DNA from: Edaphobacter modestus
Lineage (GTDB): Bacteria; Acidobacteriota; Terriglobia; Terriglobales; Acidobacteriaceae
NCBI RefSeq assembly: GCF_004217555.1
Contig: NZ_SHKW01000001.1
Location: forward strand, 1,612,001 to 1,676,000
Direction: 5' to 3'
DNA length: 64,000 nt
Below the pieces are notes generated by a model. It worked only from the letters and a program-made list of their open reading frames with translations. It ran no database searches and was not told where the DNA came from. This document shows positions 3,713-52,942 of the stretch, piece by piece (the stretch's first letter is position 1; each line of letters starts with the position of its first letter). The position numbers were made by a program, and so were the translations under genes.

Positions 3713-4282
3713 ATGCACGATACTTACAAAAAACAGAAGCAGGTCAAACTGGCCGCACGCATGTCGGTCTTTATTGGCATGCTCTGTCTGATTGCCGGTT
3801 GTAACACCAAGACCAAGGCGACTCCCGAAAATTTCACCAAGGCGATCAACACCTATTTTCTGGATCGCCCAGAGTGCCTCTTCCCGAATATTCGTTTTCC
3901 CTACGCGACGGCTGACGCTGCAGAGACTAAGCAGATGAACGCTCTGGTCCGATCACGTCTCCTCGAATCGAGCTATGAGTCAGCCGTCAAGACGACTCGT
4001 TACACGGTGAGCCGGACCGGGGAACGTTTCGCACCACGCTTTTGTTATGGGTACCGCGAAATTAGCGCGATCGACAGCTTCACGCCGCCAAAGACCGGGC
4101 CGAGCGGCTTTCCCGAGACGGAGATCAACTATCGCTATCAGTTCAAGAATGTTCCGGTCTGGGCTCAGGCTTCCGATATAGCGGACGCATTCCCCAAGAT
4201 GAAACAGGCCACGACGACTGGCGGCGCCGACAAGATTACCCTGGCACAGACACTCGCGGGCTGGCAGGTGCCGGAACGATAG
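3713..4282 (+). CDS. Putative lipoprotein of unknown function
   Basis: 189 residues from the ATG at 3713, which follows GAGGAG by six bases; the upstream in-frame extension to 3626 has no support. Residues 17-30 form a lipoprotein signal ending in LIAGC, with a lipidated Cys. The mature part starts near NTKTKATPENFTKAINTYF and includes PECLF and RFCYGYREI with paired Cys, then a YRYQFKNVPVWA segment. The phrase FTKAINTYFLDRPECLF resembles small acidobacterial and proteobacterial lipoproteins with no assigned role. The gene stands alone. Confidence 0.75.
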   Translation: MHDTYKKQKQVKLAARMSVFIGMLCLIAGCNTKTKATPENFTKAINTYFLDRPECLFPNIRFPYATADAAETKQMNALVRSRLLESSYESAVKTTRYTVSRTGERFAPRFCYGYREISAIDSFTPPKTGPSGFPETEINYRYQFKNVPVWAQASDIADAFPKMKQATTTGGADKITLAQTLAGWQVPER

Positions 4283-4306
4283 CCCGCTGGCCCGCGCTCC
4301 TCGGTG

Positions 4307-5079
4307 TCAGCGCCATCCACCTCCAAGTGTCGCATAAAACTGCACCGGAGATGCTGCCTCCTGTTCCTGAGCCTGTGCCAACCGCAACTGAGCGCCATAG
4401 AGATCTGTGTCGGTCGTCAACACTTCGAGATATCCCGTATTTTCCTCCGGAGTAGCGAAGGCGCGCCAGGCGAACTGCATCCATCGCAGATTTCACTTGC
4501 CCTGCCTGCCGTTCACGATGCTCACGAGTCTCTTTTATAGGAGACCAAGGCATTCGAAACATCCTTGAACGCGTTCAGCACGGTGCTCTGATAGGAGAGG
4601 AGCATCTCTTTTTGCTGTTGCTGCGAGAGCCGATAATTATTGCGGATTCTGCCTCCATCGAAGATAGGTTCGGTGATGGAGCCGACGCATACCAATAGGA
4701 AGCAGGTCCCCGTGAAGACGTAGTTCAACTGATTGCTCGCAGCTCCGCCCAGACTCGTTAACGCAAGCTGGGGGGAATATTGTGCACGCGCGACACGATT
4801 CTCGCATTGGATGCAACAAGCTTCTGCTCTGCCTGCTGAACATCCGGTCTGCGTTCGAGCAGTTCCGACGTATCCCGACCGGAATTTCCTGTGGATGCGG
4901 CTGATCGGCGATTTGAAGGCCTCTATCGATCTAGCAGGATTATGGCCTAGAAGTACGCTGAGGGTATTTTCCTGAATTGCTATCTCGCGGCGGATCTGGG
5001 GTAGATTTTCCTCGGCTGCATACAAGAGTTCTTCAGCCTGTCGTGTGTCTTCAAGCGATCCAGCTCCGCCTTTTTCCAA
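4307..5079 (-). pseudogene. Remnant of RND efflux outer-membrane factor (NodT/OprM type)
   Basis: Minus-strand remains of a TolC-like outer-membrane channel, readable only by changing frame. One frame has SLEDTRQAEELLYAAEENL and SVLLGHNP, the alpha-hairpin repeats of the family. A second carries RRPDVQQAEQKLVASNAR-like residues. The first resumes with VARAQYSPQLALTSLGG and EPIFDGGRI. The tail is in a third frame with GYLEVLTTDTDLYGAQLRLA, and the stop is at 4307-4309. At least three frame changes plus loss of the N-terminal half show that the gene is dead. It joins directly to an RND pump fragment. Confidence 0.85.
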
Positions 5080-42598: not shown

Positions 42599-44150
42599 TA
42601 GTGCTGTATCTGGAGCGCCCATTTTTTCCGGTTGGTTGATTGAAGCGCTGTGGGGCGGCGCTTCGGATACAGCGACTTGAAGGAAGCCGCTGGCAGTTGG
42701 GTTGCTATGGGATTTGAATGGTGCTGCGCGGAGGCCGAGGGCATCGGAGGTCGGTGGTGCGTGGTGCGGATGCGGATTGTGGGAAGAGTTCGCGGGGGCA
42801 AAGCTTCTGGATGAGGCAGCAGACAGCGGGTGAAGCGGTGGTCTCGAGTGCGGTTGGAGCGAGATGCGACACAGGGACTCTGTGCGTGCCGGAGCAGGTA
42901 AGCAGGTCGAGGTTGGAACTGTGGGTTCATGCGGCACACTCGCGGGACAGCGGAGGAGAGCGAAGCAGGAGTTGAGCTGCGGAGAGGTGTTCGACGACGT
43001 GCATGGTTCCGCCGCAGACAGGGCAGTTCCAGAGCGATGCGGAGCTCCTATGGGTTGAAGTCTGCGCTGCATTTATCTGTCGGGGCGGTCCAGTGCTGTG
43101 GAACAGGTGGAAGCAGAGCGGCAGCAACGTAGCGCGGTACCGGTTGGTGAGGAAGCCGAAGTTGCGGATGCGCACGAAGCCGCGCGGGAGCAGGTGGAGG
43201 AGGAAGCGGCGCAGGAACTCATCGACGGGCAGGATCATGAGCCGCTTCTTGTTGGCGTGAGCGGAATCTCTCCAGCGGAAGGTGACGTTGCCGTTGGCGA
43301 GGGCAACGAGTCTGTGGTTGGAGATGGCGATGCGGTGGGTGTAGGCACTGAGATAGCGCAGTGCGTGTTCCGGCCCGCCGAAGGGGCGCTTGGCGTAGAC
43401 GACCCAGTCGTGGCGGAACAGGAGTCTGAGCCAGGAGGTAAAGGTCCCCTGTGCTGCGAGTGGTGCGAGGTTGCCGTAGAACTGGAGTGTGCCTGTATGG
43501 AAGGCGCTCTTGAGTCCGGCGACGAACTTGCCGCGGAACACGCGGCTGAGCACCTTGATGGGGAGAAAGAAGGAGCGGCGGGAGGAGATCCAGCGGGAGT
43601 GGTCTGGAGCGAGGCCGCCGGCGGCGAGCACGCAGTGGACATGGGGATGATGTTGCAGGCGCTGGTCCCAGGTATGGAGCACGCTGAAGAAGCCGATCTC
43701 GGCGCCGAGGTGTCGGGGATCGCGAGCGATCTCGAGCAGGGTCGCGGCGCTGGAGTGGAACAGCAGGTTATAAATCAGCCGCTTGTTCTGCAGAGCAAGC
43801 GGGGCCAGTTCGCGCGGGAGGGTGAAGACAACATGCACGTAGCGGGTAGGGAGAAGCTCGCGTTGGCGGGCTTCGAGCCAGCGCACACGGGCGTTGCCCT
43901 GGCATCCGGGGCAATGCCGATTACGGCACGAATAGTAGGAGATGGCGGAATGTCCGCAGCTGGAGCACTGATCGCGATGCCCGCCCAGCGCAGCGGTGCG
44001 GCAACGGGTGATGGCCAGCAACACCTTCTGATGTTGCCAGCTGATCCACCGGCGACTGCGCTTTATGAAGTCGTCACCGGCACAGTGAACGATGTCGGCC
44101 ATCTCCAGCGAAGGTCGGTTCATGCGCTGAGAGATACCCCTGCCACTTAA
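42599..44150 (-). mobile_element. IS91-family element
   Basis: Holds an IS91-type transposase on the minus strand. The left boundary is set by a shared end: 42599-42745 recurs almost unchanged at 52749-52894. That end lies on the 3' side of the transposase, where IS91 elements have their replication origin (oriIS). It contains inverted-repeat sequence (GCTGTATC near 42604, GGATACAGC near 42666). The other end (terIS) is not resolved; 44150 is an estimate. Confidence 0.8.
42927..44123 (-). CDS. IS91-family transposase (HUH, IS801-like)
   Basis: 398 residues. N-terminal zinc finger (CSSCGHSAISYYSCRNRHCP) followed by CQGNARVRWLEAR. The HUH motif is HPHVHCVLAAGG, the catalytic Tyr region is ALRYLSAYTHRIAISNHRL, and TFRWRDSAH follows. 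C-terminal CPVCGGTM adds a second Cys pair. These enzymes move by rolling-circle, one-ended transposition. The gene looks complete. Confidence 0.93.
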   Translation of the reverse strand: MNRPSLEMADIVHCAGDDFIKRSRRWISWQHQKVLLAITRCRTAALGGHRDQCSSCGHSAISYYSCRNRHCPGCQGNARVRWLEARQRELLPTRYVHVVFTLPRELAPLALQNKRLIYNLLFHSSAATLLEIARDPRHLGAEIGFFSVLHTWDQRLQHHPHVHCVLAAGGLAPDHSRWISSRRSFFLPIKVLSRVFRGKFVAGLKSAFHTGTLQFYGNLAPLAAQGTFTSWLRLLFRHDWVVYAKRPFGGPEHALRYLSAYTHRIAISNHRLVALANGNVTFRWRDSAHANKKRLMILPVDEFLRRFLLHLLPRGFVRIRNFGFLTNRYRATLLPLCFHLFHSTGPPRQINAAQTSTHRSSASLWNCPVCGGTMHVVEHLSAAQLLLRSPPLSRECAA

Positions 44151-44663
44151 CTTAGCGCAGCGCCATCAAGGCTGGCTCAACCACACGCGCATGCGTCCGC
44201 CGCTCTCAAAGCGGCTTCGTTCAAGTCGGCTTGTGGGAAGTAAAGTGCGCTGAAGATTCAAAGCAGTTTCGCTTTATGGGGCCATACAAGAAGGAGATTG
44301 CAGCTTATGGGGGTGAGCTAATTTCAGCTTACCCGAGGCGGCATGGCGACCCCAGTCGGAGAAACAGGCAGTAAGGTGCCCGTCACTCGGGAGTGACCGT
44401 CACCTCTTGAAGGCGACCTATTGGTACTAACCGGCGAAAAGGACCTCGGTGTTGCTCTTCAGATTGCCAAAGTGGACTTTGTTAGATCAGCGCAGAGACT
44501 CAGGTATGCACCCGCCTAAGGTTGGAGCGAAAAGGATTTCTCCAAATCAGGCCCTCATCGCCAGCTTTACCCCGTCCGTCGCGCACACCATCTTCCTCTC
44601 CTGCAGGTTCTACCTAGCATATTGATCGCGCCCAGTCGGCAGTACCCCAGGACAATAATACGA
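44124..44663. other. IS flank with inward repeat motif, no gene
   Basis: No convincing gene. At 44251-44284 the plus strand reads TGAAGATTCA, then CAGTTTCGCTTTATGGGGCC, with looser copies CAGCTTATGGGGG (about 44300) and AATTTCAGCTTACCC (about 44320). The same pattern occurs inverted near 49985-50045. These look like the ends of an IS21-like or similar element. A short G/C-rich part (44380-44480) is also free of genes. Confidence 0.5.
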
Positions 44664-49072: not shown

Positions 49073-49278
49073 AGGTGACTCTTGGCGGGAAGCTTATCAC
49101 CTTGCGGACGATTTCGCTGAAGAACTGAAGCGTACCGGGGCTAATTCTGCTCCGGCGAAGCCATGGACACCGTAAACTTCACCACGTCTTCGCTCGTATG
49201 ATCTCGCCATCCGACCTTTCAATTATTCCCGGCGCCATAATCAATCGAGTGAAAAACGCATCTCGTATTTCACTTCCG

Positions 49279-49967
49279 GTCGAGTAGCCCCGGGGAATTT
49301 CAACCCCGAGGCCCTCACAGAACCGTGCGTGAACCTCTCGATTCACACGGCTCTTCATAGCTGAGGCTTGTCTCTTGCGAGATCAAACCGTCTCTGGAGG
49401 TAGAGGCTCCTCCTGGTTGCCTAGTTGGCCAAGCTCTCCGTCGAGCTATGTCATCCTCTTCGCTCCCCGTCCGTTACAGACGCTTCAACGCTACTACAGG
49501 ATGATCCGCCAACTTCAAGTGCATCGATATTTCCCTTTCGTGGGTCCCACTTATGGGTTTTCTCTTAGCATCACTTGAAGACTTCCCATGTTCCGCCTAC
49601 CTGCCTCATTGGCAAGCTCAGGCCACCTCTCATGCCGGATGCCACTCCGCCCGTAAACAGGTTTCGTCGGAGCTTTGTCCCGCAGTAACAATCACGCCGC
49701 GGTTTTGACATCATCGAATTGCTTTCGACACTTCAACAGTGGTTCCTTTGCAGTCCTCTTCTTGCCTGATACCTGACCCGGTCAATGCCAGGCCTTTTCC
49801 TTCCGCGCTCACGACCATGGCTTTGGGGCCACAGCCGCCGAAGGTGGTTTGGAACCTGCTCCTGCAAGCAGGTTCCGAGGGGCCTCCCCTCATCGGATAA
49901 GCAGTTACGCGCTACTTGGCCTCACGGCCTTTCACGCTCATGGCGCACGATGGTCGGCAAACCGCAC
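49279..49967 (-). ncRNA. ORF-less bacterial group II intron (689 nt)
   Basis: On the minus strand the RNA starts GTGCGGTTTG at 49967, matching the 5' consensus GUGYG. It ends with a domain V of exactly 34 nt at 49320-49353 (GAGCCGTGTGAATC, GAGA tetraloop, GGTTCACGCACGGTTC) holding the AGC triad. A domain VI hairpin (GCCTCGGGG / CCCCGGGGC) then runs to ...CTACTCGAC at 49279. The body contains phrases familiar from such introns (AGTAGCGCGTAACTGC, AAGTGTCGAAAGCA). No reverse transcriptase is encoded; domain IV is tiny. It is therefore a deletion form needing a helper maturase. Exact 3' end may shift by one base. Confidence 0.88.
49320..49353 (-). ncRNA. Group II intron catalytic domain V
   Basis: 34-nt helix; the 5' and 3' arms (GAGCCGTGTGAA and TTCACGCACGGTTC) pair with the usual bulge, closed by a GAGA tetraloop. 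The AGC triad is at positions 2-4. This is the most diagnostic element of the intron. Confidence 0.9.
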
Positions 49968-49984
49968 CTTACTCGCCCTGAACC

Positions 49985-50045
49985 CATAAGTTGAAACTGG
50001 TAGCCCCATAAGATGAAACTGAACCTCAAAAACTGAATTTCAGGG
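49985..50045 (-). repeat. Tandem IS-end-like motif, minus orientation
   Basis: On the minus strand this reads TGAAATTCAG, then TTCAGTTTCATCTTATGGGG, then CAGTTTCAACTTATGGG. Two near-identical copies of AGTTTCA(T/A)CTTATGGGG are set about 20 bases apart. A similar motif stands inverted at 44251-44284. Such multiple end repeats are typical of IS21-family ends; no IS21 transposase is seen here. Confidence 0.6.
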
Positions 50046-50084: not shown

Positions 50085-50428
50085 GCTCTTCCGGAATCAT
50101 TATAGGAGGGTGGTTCAATTAATTCTCAACTAACGCTAATAGGCCTTACCTCTCATTGAACCAGCATAGGTCAGGCGACAGATTACTTCCGAGAAGCGCG
50201 TTTCTCATTACCAATGTTTGGTCGGTCCCGCAACCGCGCATACTGTAACGTAAGCTTGACCAGTGCAAGCGCTAGCCGGAGCAATGGTCTGGGGATGCTC
50301 AATAGTGCTTGGCGCCGGCTGACTATCAGTACCGTGTACCCATTCGATCGCTTGGTCGCCCGTCGAGACATGGGATATCTTGCTTTCATCTGCTTACATT
50401 TCAGAAGACTAGGAAGGAGGCTTCGGAC

Positions 50429-51157
50429 ATGATCGACAGCGCAGACTCTGACGGCCCAGACGACGATGATGATGATCTTGTTGCCGAGGAAGCGGCCAAA
50501 GACCACTCCGATGGTGGTGATCCCGACGAATCCACCAAAACTCCGGATTCAAGTAGCAATGAAGCGTCTGTTGGCGCCGCCGGCCTGCGCGACATGCCAA
50601 CAGATCAAGACGAGCTCGGATTCGGCATCTATGTCGAATCCGTCGCGGCATTCCTTACACACAAAGACACCAAGCCACCTTTGACTATGTCCATTGAGGG
50701 GGCATGGGGATGCGGCAAATCCTCGTTTATGAGCCAATTGGCCAACGAGATTGAGAAGACGACGAAGGAGGCACCGGATTGCCCGCGAATCATCAAATTC
50801 AACGCATGGCGTCTCGATAAGGGTGAATCTCTTTGGGCAGCCTTCGCGCTCAGCGTTACCAAAGACCTGCGGAAGAAGCTGGATTTCTTCGGTCGTTTGC
50901 GGGCCGACATTAAGCTTAGGTGGCTCCGGACAGACTGGTCACGAGGGTGGTTCTCATTTGTCCGTTTTACCTTGGTCTGCCTCTTTCTGGGGTACACCGG
51001 CATCGCGATGGTTGGGTATCTGTCGTCGCATTTAACTTCGATCAACCCGTTCACGGAAGCCGTTAGGGCACCTTCGCAACCTGCAACAACTGCGAAGTCC
51101 GGGGCCACGGGCCAATCATCTTCACAAAGTCCTGGTGTGGCAAATCGGAATCCTTAA
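50429..51157 (+). pseudogene. KAP-family P-loop NTPase, N-terminal half (frameshifted)
   Basis: From the ATG at 50429 behind AGGAGG at nine bases. Acidic low-complexity head (SDGPDDDDDDLVAEEAAKD), then LGFGIYVESVAAFL, Walker A GAWGCGKSSFM, IIKFNAWRLDKGESLW (the KAP motif) and a membrane helix FTLVCLFLGYTGIAMVGYL. It stops at GVANRNP, just where the next frame carries KSESLKPEPPKP. KAP NTPases have two helices inserted between Walker A and B; the second helix is in the other frame. One indel near 51130-51150 separates the halves. Confidence 0.85.
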
Positions 51158-52452
51158 AGCCTGAGCCCCCAAAACCCGAGATCGCAAAACCAGAGCCCCA
51201 AAAGGCAGAGTCTCCAAAGCCAGAAGACGTCCTAATCAAAATCTTGTTTACAGGTTTGGGCGGCGCCGGCTACATCCTGCTGGTGGCGTGGTTACTCAAA
51301 AAGGCCACGGAGATCGTTGGCAACCCGCTTGAGATCGATTGGCAAAAGTACTCGTCGGATCCCCGTTACGACGATCGCCGCGCATTCATTCAGACGTTCC
51401 ATGAGGACTTTATAAAGATCGTTGAAACATATTCCGAGGGGCGGAAGATCTTCATCTTCATCGATGATTTGGACCGATGCGAGATTCCTCGAGCAGCGGA
51501 GTTGATGCAGTCGATCAATCTGTTACTAAGCGATTCTTCTCAAATCGTCCATATCCTCGGCATTGACCGCGAGAAGATTGCTGCCGGGTTGGCCGCGAAG
51601 TATCATGTTCTTCTGCCATATCTGGACGAACGCAAGGAGATTTCACTTGGCCGCCTAGGGCTTGAGTTCGGCTTCTCTTTCCTTGAAAAGTTCATCCAAA
51701 TACCTTTTCAGGTTCCTCGTCCGACGAAACGCGAAGTGAAACTCTTCTTGGACGCACTTAATGAAAACCGGCGGAAGCCCGACGAATATCCTGGTGCCTC
51801 CCCTTCTGCGGGAACCATGTTCTATGCGAAAGCCGATTCTCCCATGGTCAAGCGGATTGTAGCGGACGTTGCACCAGCGCTCGAATATAACCCGCGACGC
51901 ATAAAACAATTTATCAATCAATTCCGATTGTCCGCGATCATCGCTAGTCAAACCGGATTGTTTGATCCAGGAATCGGCTTCGCGGGTTTTACGCCTGAGA
52001 TTCTCGCGAAGCTTCTGGTCATAACCCTCAGATGGCCCTCCTTGATAACCGACGCCCTGTCCTCTCGAAAACTGCTATTCGCCCTCGAAGTGATGGCGAT
52101 TTCGGATGACCCGGAACAGTCACTGAAAATTGGGGATTTCGAGGTTACAGGGGGGCTCGCTGAATTGTGGTTTAAAAATGATGCGCTCAAGGCTCTCCTA
52201 CGTGTAGGCATCGAAATACGCACCCCGCACTCACGCGATATTGTCATACCCCGACAATCGCTTGAAAAGGTTGATTTGGTGCGATACCTGCAGGTGTCCC
52301 CTGCAATTCGATCGAAATTATCGCGTGAAGACGAAGAGAAGCCAACTGATTCGCCTCCAACAACGACTAAAACTAAAATTGTTGGCATCGGAGAAGAGTT
52401 CAAGCGGGATCCAGACTACCACCGAGGGCTTGCGGGGCTGATCAAGCAATGA
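51158..52452 (+). pseudogene. KAP-family P-loop NTPase, C-terminal half (frameshifted)
   Basis: Continuation in another frame. It opens with a Pro/Glu/Lys linker (PEIAKPEPQKAE), then helix 2 (GLGGAGYILLVAWLLKKA), then Walker B FIFIDDLDRCEIPRAAELM and HILGIDREKIAAGL. The usual C-terminal KAP part follows (YNPRRIKQFINQFRLSA). An internal start at 51244 (TTG) is the first codon of the open frame and is not a likely real start. KAP proteins are membrane-associated NTPases, often tied to plasmids, phages and defence islands. Confidence 0.85.
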
Positions 52453-52942
52453 ACTGTGCCCAATTCTGACAAAATCCTCGCCCGCAGTTAGTTTATCGAC
52501 TTCGACCTACCCGAAAATGAGGTTTGCGGTAACTTGCCGGAACTAGGAGCCGCTGCACCCTTAGTTATTGCCAAATTGCCGATGCACTCAGCGAGGGATG
52601 GATTGATACCCACAAGTCCTAGTAGCCTGTCGCAGAGAGTTCGTTACCACTCACGAGCGGCCCAGTCGAATTCGTGAGACGGGGACTGGTTCAGGTCTCC
52701 CAAGAATGACCTCTCTGACCTACTAACGTTTTCTTTGCGACAGGCCACTAGTGCTGTATCTGGAGCGCCCATTTTCTTCAGTTGGTTTGATTGAAGCGCT
52801 GTGAGGGCGCTTCGGATACAGCGACTTGAAGGAAGCCGCTGGCAGTTGGGTTGCTATGGGATTTGAATAGTGCTGCGCGGAGGCCGAGGGTATCCTCACA
52901 ATCAGGTACGAATGAGCCTAAAACCACCGCTCTTGGTTGCCT
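52453..52942. other. Intergenic with solo IS91 end
   Basis: After the KAP locus I see no gene. The middle (52749-52894) is the copy of the IS91 end described separately. The rest (52453-52748 and 52895-52942) holds no recognisable coding or RNA feature. Confidence 0.5.
52749..52894 (+). repeat. Solo copy of the IS91-family origin end
   Basis: 146 bases nearly identical to 42599-42745: the same start TAGTGCTGTATCTGGAGC and the same end GAGGCCGAGGG, with a few changes (GCGCTGTGAGGGCGC against GCGCTGTGGGGCGGCGC). It is in the same orientation. No transposase is attached. This is either a truncated element, a one-ended transposition scar, or an end left after deletion. Confidence 0.85.

Follow-up and report, generated by a model that had tools for sequence, protein, structure and literature searches.

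A reverse transcriptase-less group II intron of Edaphobacter modestus with an apparently chimeric domain composition

Results

The window (the whole stretch of 64,000 nucleotides of Edaphobacter modestus DNA analyzed here) contains on its minus strand a group II intron inserted at the end of a dispersed repeat. The host genome (7.4 Mb in 8 contigs; completeness 100, contamination 6.38) has a single copy of this intron. The features of the locus, in the direction of the intron RNA, are the following.

49949-49974, minus strand: 5′ exon, the end of a dispersed Edaphobacter repeat; IBS1 GACCATC at 49955-49949
49279-49948, minus strand: whole group II intron, 670 nt, with no ORF of at least 80 aa (Rfam, ORF list, and fold)
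49583-49948, minus strand: D1, of an RT-bearing acidobacterial type; 5′ end GTGCGCC at 49948
49717-49723, minus strand: EBS2 candidate AGCAATT, weak here and 7/7 in the relative L042 (pairing by eye)
49687-49693, minus strand: EBS1 GATTGTT
49581-49589, minus strand: best single putative recombination break (intron positions 360-368), at the D1/D2 junction
49513-49582, minus strand: D2 (fold)
49451-49506, minus strand: D3 (fold and D3-D6 alignment)
49356-49450, minus strand: D4, about 95 nt, with closing stem CATAGCT/AGCTATG and no reverse transcriptase (RT)
49405-49430, minus strand: D4a hairpin with the Shine-Dalgarno-like AGGAGG
49320-49353, minus strand: D5, 34 nt (Rfam)
49282-49316, minus strand: D6, with the bulged branch-point A; 3′ end GAC at 49281-49279
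49220-49278, minus strand: first part of the 3′ exon; CGGAAGTG carries the repeat onward in several empty sites

An ORF-less group II intron had been predicted at this place from the letters alone, and covariance searches bore this out. On the minus strand, the Rfam family RF01999 (group-II-D1D4-2) matched at 49771-49891 with 107.1 bits (gathering threshold 36) and RF00029 (Intron_gpII) matched at 49279-49355 with 61.0 bits (gathering threshold 40). Since D1 and D5-D6 score above the thresholds of their families and the domains follow the order D1 to D6, the element at 49279-49948 is, as judged from its sequence, a real group II intron. The Rfam matches showed this normal order and not the circularly permuted arrangement, in which D5-D6 precede D1 (PMC8637638). 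The 5′ end has the GUGYG form (GTGCG at 49948). The 34-nt D5 with its AGC triad and GAGA tetraloop is present as predicted (49353-49320), as is the D6 hairpin, whose bulged A at 49285 is seven bases from the 3′ end of the intron. The domains fold: the 670-nt RNA had a z-score of -4.74, none of 20 shuffled sequences was equally stable, and the centroid structure contained D2, D3, a short D4, D5, and D6 with the bulged A. No ORF of at least 80 aa overlaps 49279-49948. Neither outcome that would have refuted the original prediction, domains that fail to fold or a clear RT remnant in the locus, occurred.

The 5′ boundary had to be moved. The original prediction took a GTGCGG at 49967 as the first bases of an intron of 689 nt; this motif belongs to the exon, and the intron begins with GTGCGCC at 49948, 19 nt away, for a corrected length of 670 nt. 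The upstream position was ruled out by a plasmid of Neochlamydia sp. S13 (L060), where RT-less copies start at 2314, 2959, and 3604. The second and third of these open with GTGTGCCACGAGC (GTGTGCC being the first bases) immediately 3′ of the ...CCCGAT that ends the preceding copy, and the counterpart of this start in the window is GTGCGCCATGAGC at 49948. Also against 49967, the empty sites continue through GTGCGGTTTGCCGAC, and the exon end GAGTAAG that it implies pairs at just 5 of 7 positions with the EBS1 loop. With the boundary at 49948, EBS1 pairs with IBS1 at 6 of 7 positions (2 of 193 other offsets were equally good), and at the copy in E. aggregans (L039) the same EBS1 pairs at 7 of 7 positions with GACAATC. 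Over 10 introns, the mean best EBS1 pairing was 6.4 with cognate and 5.1 with non-cognate exons; this test used the best 7-mer of each loop and is modest as sole evidence. The fit was poor for L060 and L057, with 14 and 7 of 193 other offsets equally good. Empty sites agreed with the predicted junction: of 16 loci examined, 8 gave alignments that extend across it and cover 8 or more bases on either side, a count that includes two matches of 21 nt each that are possibly due to chance (L104 and L105). The clearest empty site, L093, aligns over 59 nt without gaps at 85% identity. Of 199 relatives, 23 had a match to the joined flanks at E 0.01.

The 5′ exon, GAGTAAGGTGCGGTTTGCCGACCATC, was found 44 times with at most 3 mismatches in five genomes (7 in the own genome, 20 in E. 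aggregans G034, 11 in G018, 4 in G030, and 2 in G048); the reversed pattern gave no matches under the same search. Among the 30 of these loci that were listed, the window's own (L140) is the only one that continues into the intron. A truncated RT-bearing intron, L041, occupies the same point of a variant of the repeat, and L097 has the empty form of that variant. The repeat (L139-L168) is about 100-190 nt long where best conserved and has the common 3′ end GAGTAAGGTGCGGTTTGCCGAC. No Rfam family matched L136 or L097, two loci that hold it. A coding reading of the exon in the KVRFADHPEVKYEMR frame was rejected: at the loci listed, stops interrupt the frames in which this DNA lies and its surroundings differ, and for this reason the exon DNA is taken as a noncoding dispersed repeat. 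The intron had been described as lying just inside IS-end-like repeats. This holds for the sequence at 50003-50021, which in inverted orientation is similar (84% over 19 nt) to 44264-44282, located upstream of an IS91-type transposase gene; the exon directly next to the intron is another repeat, the dispersed one described above. Downstream of the transposase gene (42927-44123, minus strand), the segment 42599-42745 recurs 10 kb away at 52749-52894 (98% over 89 nt), the remnant of a second copy. A KAP-family P-loop NTPase is split over the adjacent ORFs 50309-51157 and 51244-52452, possibly a broken gene.

Relatives without an RT were found in other genomes. E. aggregans has two, 96% and 85% identical to the window intron, the former (L039) at a different site. 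When 396 genomes of the phylum were scanned in a second round, one relevant locus was added, in another genus of the same family (G516); the other matches of this round were mostly D5-D6 alone. Viral contigs queried with a protein of the window and with a D5 pattern, together with phage records, gave no relevant match. The part of D4 that lies 3′ of the Shine-Dalgarno sequence resembles the corresponding part of L039, L040, L058, L045, and L091 (0 of 500 shuffles as similar in each case), hardly resembles that of L053 (44 of 500), and does not resemble those of L055, L057, and L060 (282-355 of 500). The hosts of this six-member set are Edaphobacter (the own genome, G034, and G005), G516, and the SBC1 and SBC2 plasmids of Caballeronia. 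Compared from the side of the Caballeronia intron L058, the D4 similarity is clear for L039 and L040 (0 of 500), weaker for L045 (17 of 500), and absent for L091 (279 of 500). These D4 comparisons make a single loss of the RT likely for the six introns, with the window intron as the link, given the weakness of L058 against L091 and L045. RT-less introns outside the set probably lost their RT separately. An RT-bearing intron with this D2-D6 was not encountered, the plasmid records covered being 40 of 163 and 25 of 287.

Several of these records have unusual arrangements. On a plasmid of Caballeronia sp. SBC2 (L058:2529-4972), the RT-less intron is nested in D1 of an RT-bearing intron, a twintron whose outer member has an ltrA annotated at 3728-4972. 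The Neochlamydia plasmid (L060:2314-4247) carries its three RT-less introns, of about 645 nt, head to tail with exonless junctions, and six places in that record match. The 5′ exons of two RT-bearing relatives (L042:2625 and L062:2901) indicate that these introns are inserted in the RT genes of other introns, at the YADD codons.

A pattern search found a hairpin ending in the Shine-Dalgarno sequence (D4a) in 16 of 18 introns, including all 10 RT-less ones; L058b and L062, which gave no match, were left out of the D4a count. In the 16 introns 47 of 48 stem cells are paired, which none of 2000 shuffles reached, and the sole unpaired cell is an A-C of the window intron itself. Among the 67 pairs predicted for D3-D6 in eight RT-less introns, 41 have changed on both sides in a compensatory manner, the structure having been predicted from the very alignment that was scored. 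L045 and L091 were left out of an intron alignment because their D6 is decayed, and one of the three L060 copies represented all of them. All eight RT-less introns retain six pairs of the stem that closes D4. D4a is the usual place of maturase binding, and its conserved hairpin is the main reason for expecting that a protein would act in trans on these introns. Retention of D4a with its Shine-Dalgarno sequence in the RT-less relatives, which suggests use of a protein in the lineage, also makes it very improbable that the window intron splices free of protein. The analogy for such splicing is C.te.I1 of Clostridium tetani (PMC3919590, PMC4424553, both in excerpt), and it would agree with the lack of a close RT in the genome.

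The domains of the intron did not give a uniform picture of its ancestry. Pairwise identity per bin with the RT-bearing L041 is 84-96% as far as position 400 and falls to 42-51% after it. With the RT-less L058 it is 55-63% in D1 (69% in a first bin of 13 nt only), 76-82% over positions 350-500, and then 65, 44, 92, and 70%; for these values and for the trees, L058 was trimmed about 38 nt inside its likely 5′ end. In a D1 tree of 16 rows and 370 columns, the window intron and L039 group with L041, L042, and L044 (90/93). A clade of the window intron, L039, and L058 was rejected (p-AU 1.9e-51), and the set of the window intron, L039, L041, and L042 was borderline (p 0.054), with L044 falling inside it. 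The long branch of L044 is due to its first 120 nt as taken, which do not align (43% and 28%). The D2-D4a tree, with few rows (18 rows, 186 columns) and long branches for L053 and L091, placed the window intron, L039, L040, L045, L091, and L058 on one side of a branch (96/99) and rejected the clade of the window intron, L039, L041, and L042 (p-AU 8.6e-51). In the multiple alignment, the best single break was at 360-368: informative sites were divided 112:10 before it and 12:53 after it, and none of 2000 permutations was equally good. Three further comparisons put the break within 353-371, each with 0 of 2000 permutations. When L041 is aligned pairwise, identity is still 86% over positions 350-400, which allows a break up to about position 400 (about 49549); the break may therefore differ from the exact D1/D2 junction. 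These trees and break tests indicate that the intron is chimeric, with D1 and D2-D4a of different histories.

L041, L042, L043, and L044 are near one another in both trees, which makes the window intron and L039 the likely recombinants. Without recombination, the window intron would be an ordinary ORF-deletion derivative of an L041-type intron in which unequal rates make D2-D6 look foreign. Such an origin could draw on the 84-96% identity of D1 to L041 per bin and on the ORF-less introns of Thermosynechococcus elongatus, which, in the portion of PMC2882425 available, arose by simple deletion. It is scarcely credible here, since D2-D4a sides with L058, L040, L045, and L091, joining with L041 and L042 is rejected at the p-AU given above, and L041-L044 keep together on both sides of the break; plain deletion from an L041-type intron is ruled out by that rejection and by the break test. 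L040 starts at a contig end right at the D1/D2 junction, as would fit a D1 that is repeated in that genome. In a Rhodothermaceae MAG (L053:3492-3567 and L054:3570-3645), D5-D6 is 96% identical to that of the window intron over 78 nt. The D1 of L053 is near 60-67% despite the matching D5-D6, perhaps because of another exchange, or of constraint.

A search of the own genome for an RT-bearing copy, suggested by the original prediction, turned up distant RTs only. The RTs of L061 (Sinorhizobium) and L043 (Acidobacteriota) each had six matches in it, at 35-40% identity. Three of these are open copies of a single other RT (464, 464, and 354 aa), and the rest are pieces adjoining introns of types D1D4-6 and D1D4-4. 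That the three-copy RT, unrelated to the intron, helps it in trans has in its favor that these copies are open; a 35% identity to the matching RT type and a different D5 make this very unlikely, as does the situation in T. elongatus, whose driver proteins, as far as the excerpted PMC2882425 goes, act on introns of one common origin. RT pieces closer to that of L043 occur elsewhere in the genus. E. aggregans has two at the ends of contigs C209 and C99 (47 and 48%) and short ones on C6 (72%) and C2 (68%), and G018 has an N-terminal piece in L041 (74%) and a C-terminal piece in L042 (53%). The matching RT type thus occurs in Edaphobacter, though no intact RT-bearing intron with this D1 was found there, L041 and L042 being broken. 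The own genome holds a second intron without an RT (L048:3883-4500, C7), of type D1D4-6, with about 620 nt from D1 to D5-D6 and longest frames of less than 140 aa. It also holds a lone D5-D6 of 42.4 bits (L046:4412-4488, C1:5544411-5544487), with no recognised D1 and no RT nearby.

Discussion

The original prediction offered in-trans help or a fossil as the readings of an ORF-less intron, and this was the right pair of alternatives. As a fossil, the intron would have arisen by deletion and inserted a single time, and would by now have lost both splicing and mobility; its intergenic repeat location would mean that there is no selection for splicing. The single copy, the lack of a close RT in the genome, the visible decay of the relatives L045 and L091, and the one broken D4a pair and one IBS1 mismatch of the window intron, which also count against the explanation favored below, agree with this reading. 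Every domain still folds, D5 and D6 are intact, and the E. aggregans copy is 96% identical, and we regard a fossil as unlikely, if by no means negligible. The same EBS1 meeting a fully pairing IBS1 in E. aggregans, together with the conserved D4a, leans toward past movement with an RT in trans. The enabling RT seems to be absent from the genome now, as the RTs present are all distant.

We therefore favor, with moderate confidence, a non-autonomous mobile group II intron that combines an old RT-less lineage with a captured D1, was served by an RT in trans, and is now stranded. The older lineage would be marked by its D2-D6 and by the particular shortened D4 that keeps D4a. It would have gained D1 with its exon-binding sequences from an acidobacterial intron that carries an RT, by recombination near the D1/D2 junction. 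The RT/maturase of a related intron would have acted in trans in splicing and in reverse splicing into DNA, the target here being the end of a dispersed intergenic repeat. With no close RT left in the genome, the copy would probably be competent for splicing, or nearly so, and yet stranded. The anatomy, the boundaries, the missing RT ORF, the chimerism, the empty sites, the E. aggregans copy, and the lack of a close RT are read from the sequence; splicing, mobilization in trans, the direction of the exchange, and stranding are inferred from these. Of the original prediction, the ORF-less intron stands and the 5′ boundary does not; it had not recognized the true insertion target, the chimeric D1/D2 structure, or the relatives that lack an RT.

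No title or abstract in the literature searched, with subscription journals mostly outside it, dealt with a D1/D2 chimera or with this Edaphobacter intron. Within that literature, the D1/D2 recombinant and the RT-less set common to Acidobacteriota and Pseudomonadota are new. A broader proposal, which we put forward tentatively and hold to be possible rather than probable, is that RT-less D2-D6 cassettes form a long-lived, cross-phylum lineage that outlives loss of the RT by capturing, near the D1/D2 junction, the D1 (the targeting domain) of resident RT-bearing introns, in the manner of SINEs. If true, such a lineage would break the rule that ribozyme and protein evolve as a unit. An RT-less lineage in two phyla with an exchanged D1 would illustrate how catalytic RNAs can part from their proteins, as is presumed to have happened during the emergence of spliceosomal introns. 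The natural chimera also offers a test of which part of the RNA is recognized by the maturase, and hints that stripped-down introns can persist by means of borrowed targeting parts and proteins.

In the portion of PMC4424553 available, bacterial ORF-less group II introns are rare and nearly always accompanied by a related protein-coding intron, their long persistence is thought improbable, and that of C. tetani is the sole exception without a related protein. The same text finds that RNA and protein trees exclude extensive exchange and that conflict in topology tests is perhaps due to reassortment. Mobilization of ORF-less introns in trans is known in T. elongatus (PMC2882425, in part). The TeI3 introns described there are like the window intron in the loss of the RT from D4 with D4a kept (the window intron has no IEP in its D4), in good EBS/IBS pairing, and in insertion into other mobile elements. 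RT-bearing relatives act on them in trans, as we infer for the window intron. They differ in being copies from one intron in one genome that also has RT-bearing forms, whereas the window intron has at best RTs of 35-40% identity in its genome, relatives in two phyla, and a D1 that would differ in origin from D2-D6. C.te.I1 likewise lacks an ORF and, at the level searched for the window intron, a related IEP in its genome; in the excerpted PMC3919590 it has several ways of splicing in vivo and a D4 loop of 311 nt. The RT-bearing RF01999-type introns of Acidobacteriota, L041-L044, share the D1 type and the splice-site motif, and the site of L041 is a variant of the same repeat; unlike that of the window intron, their D4 holds an RT (no longer intact in L041 and L042), and their D2-D4a is on another branch. 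The Caballeronia SBC1/SBC2 intron L058 has the nearest D2-D4 outside Acidobacteriota among the matches listed and a similarly shortened D4, and differs from the window intron in its D1, only 55-63% identical, and in being nested in an RT-bearing intron.
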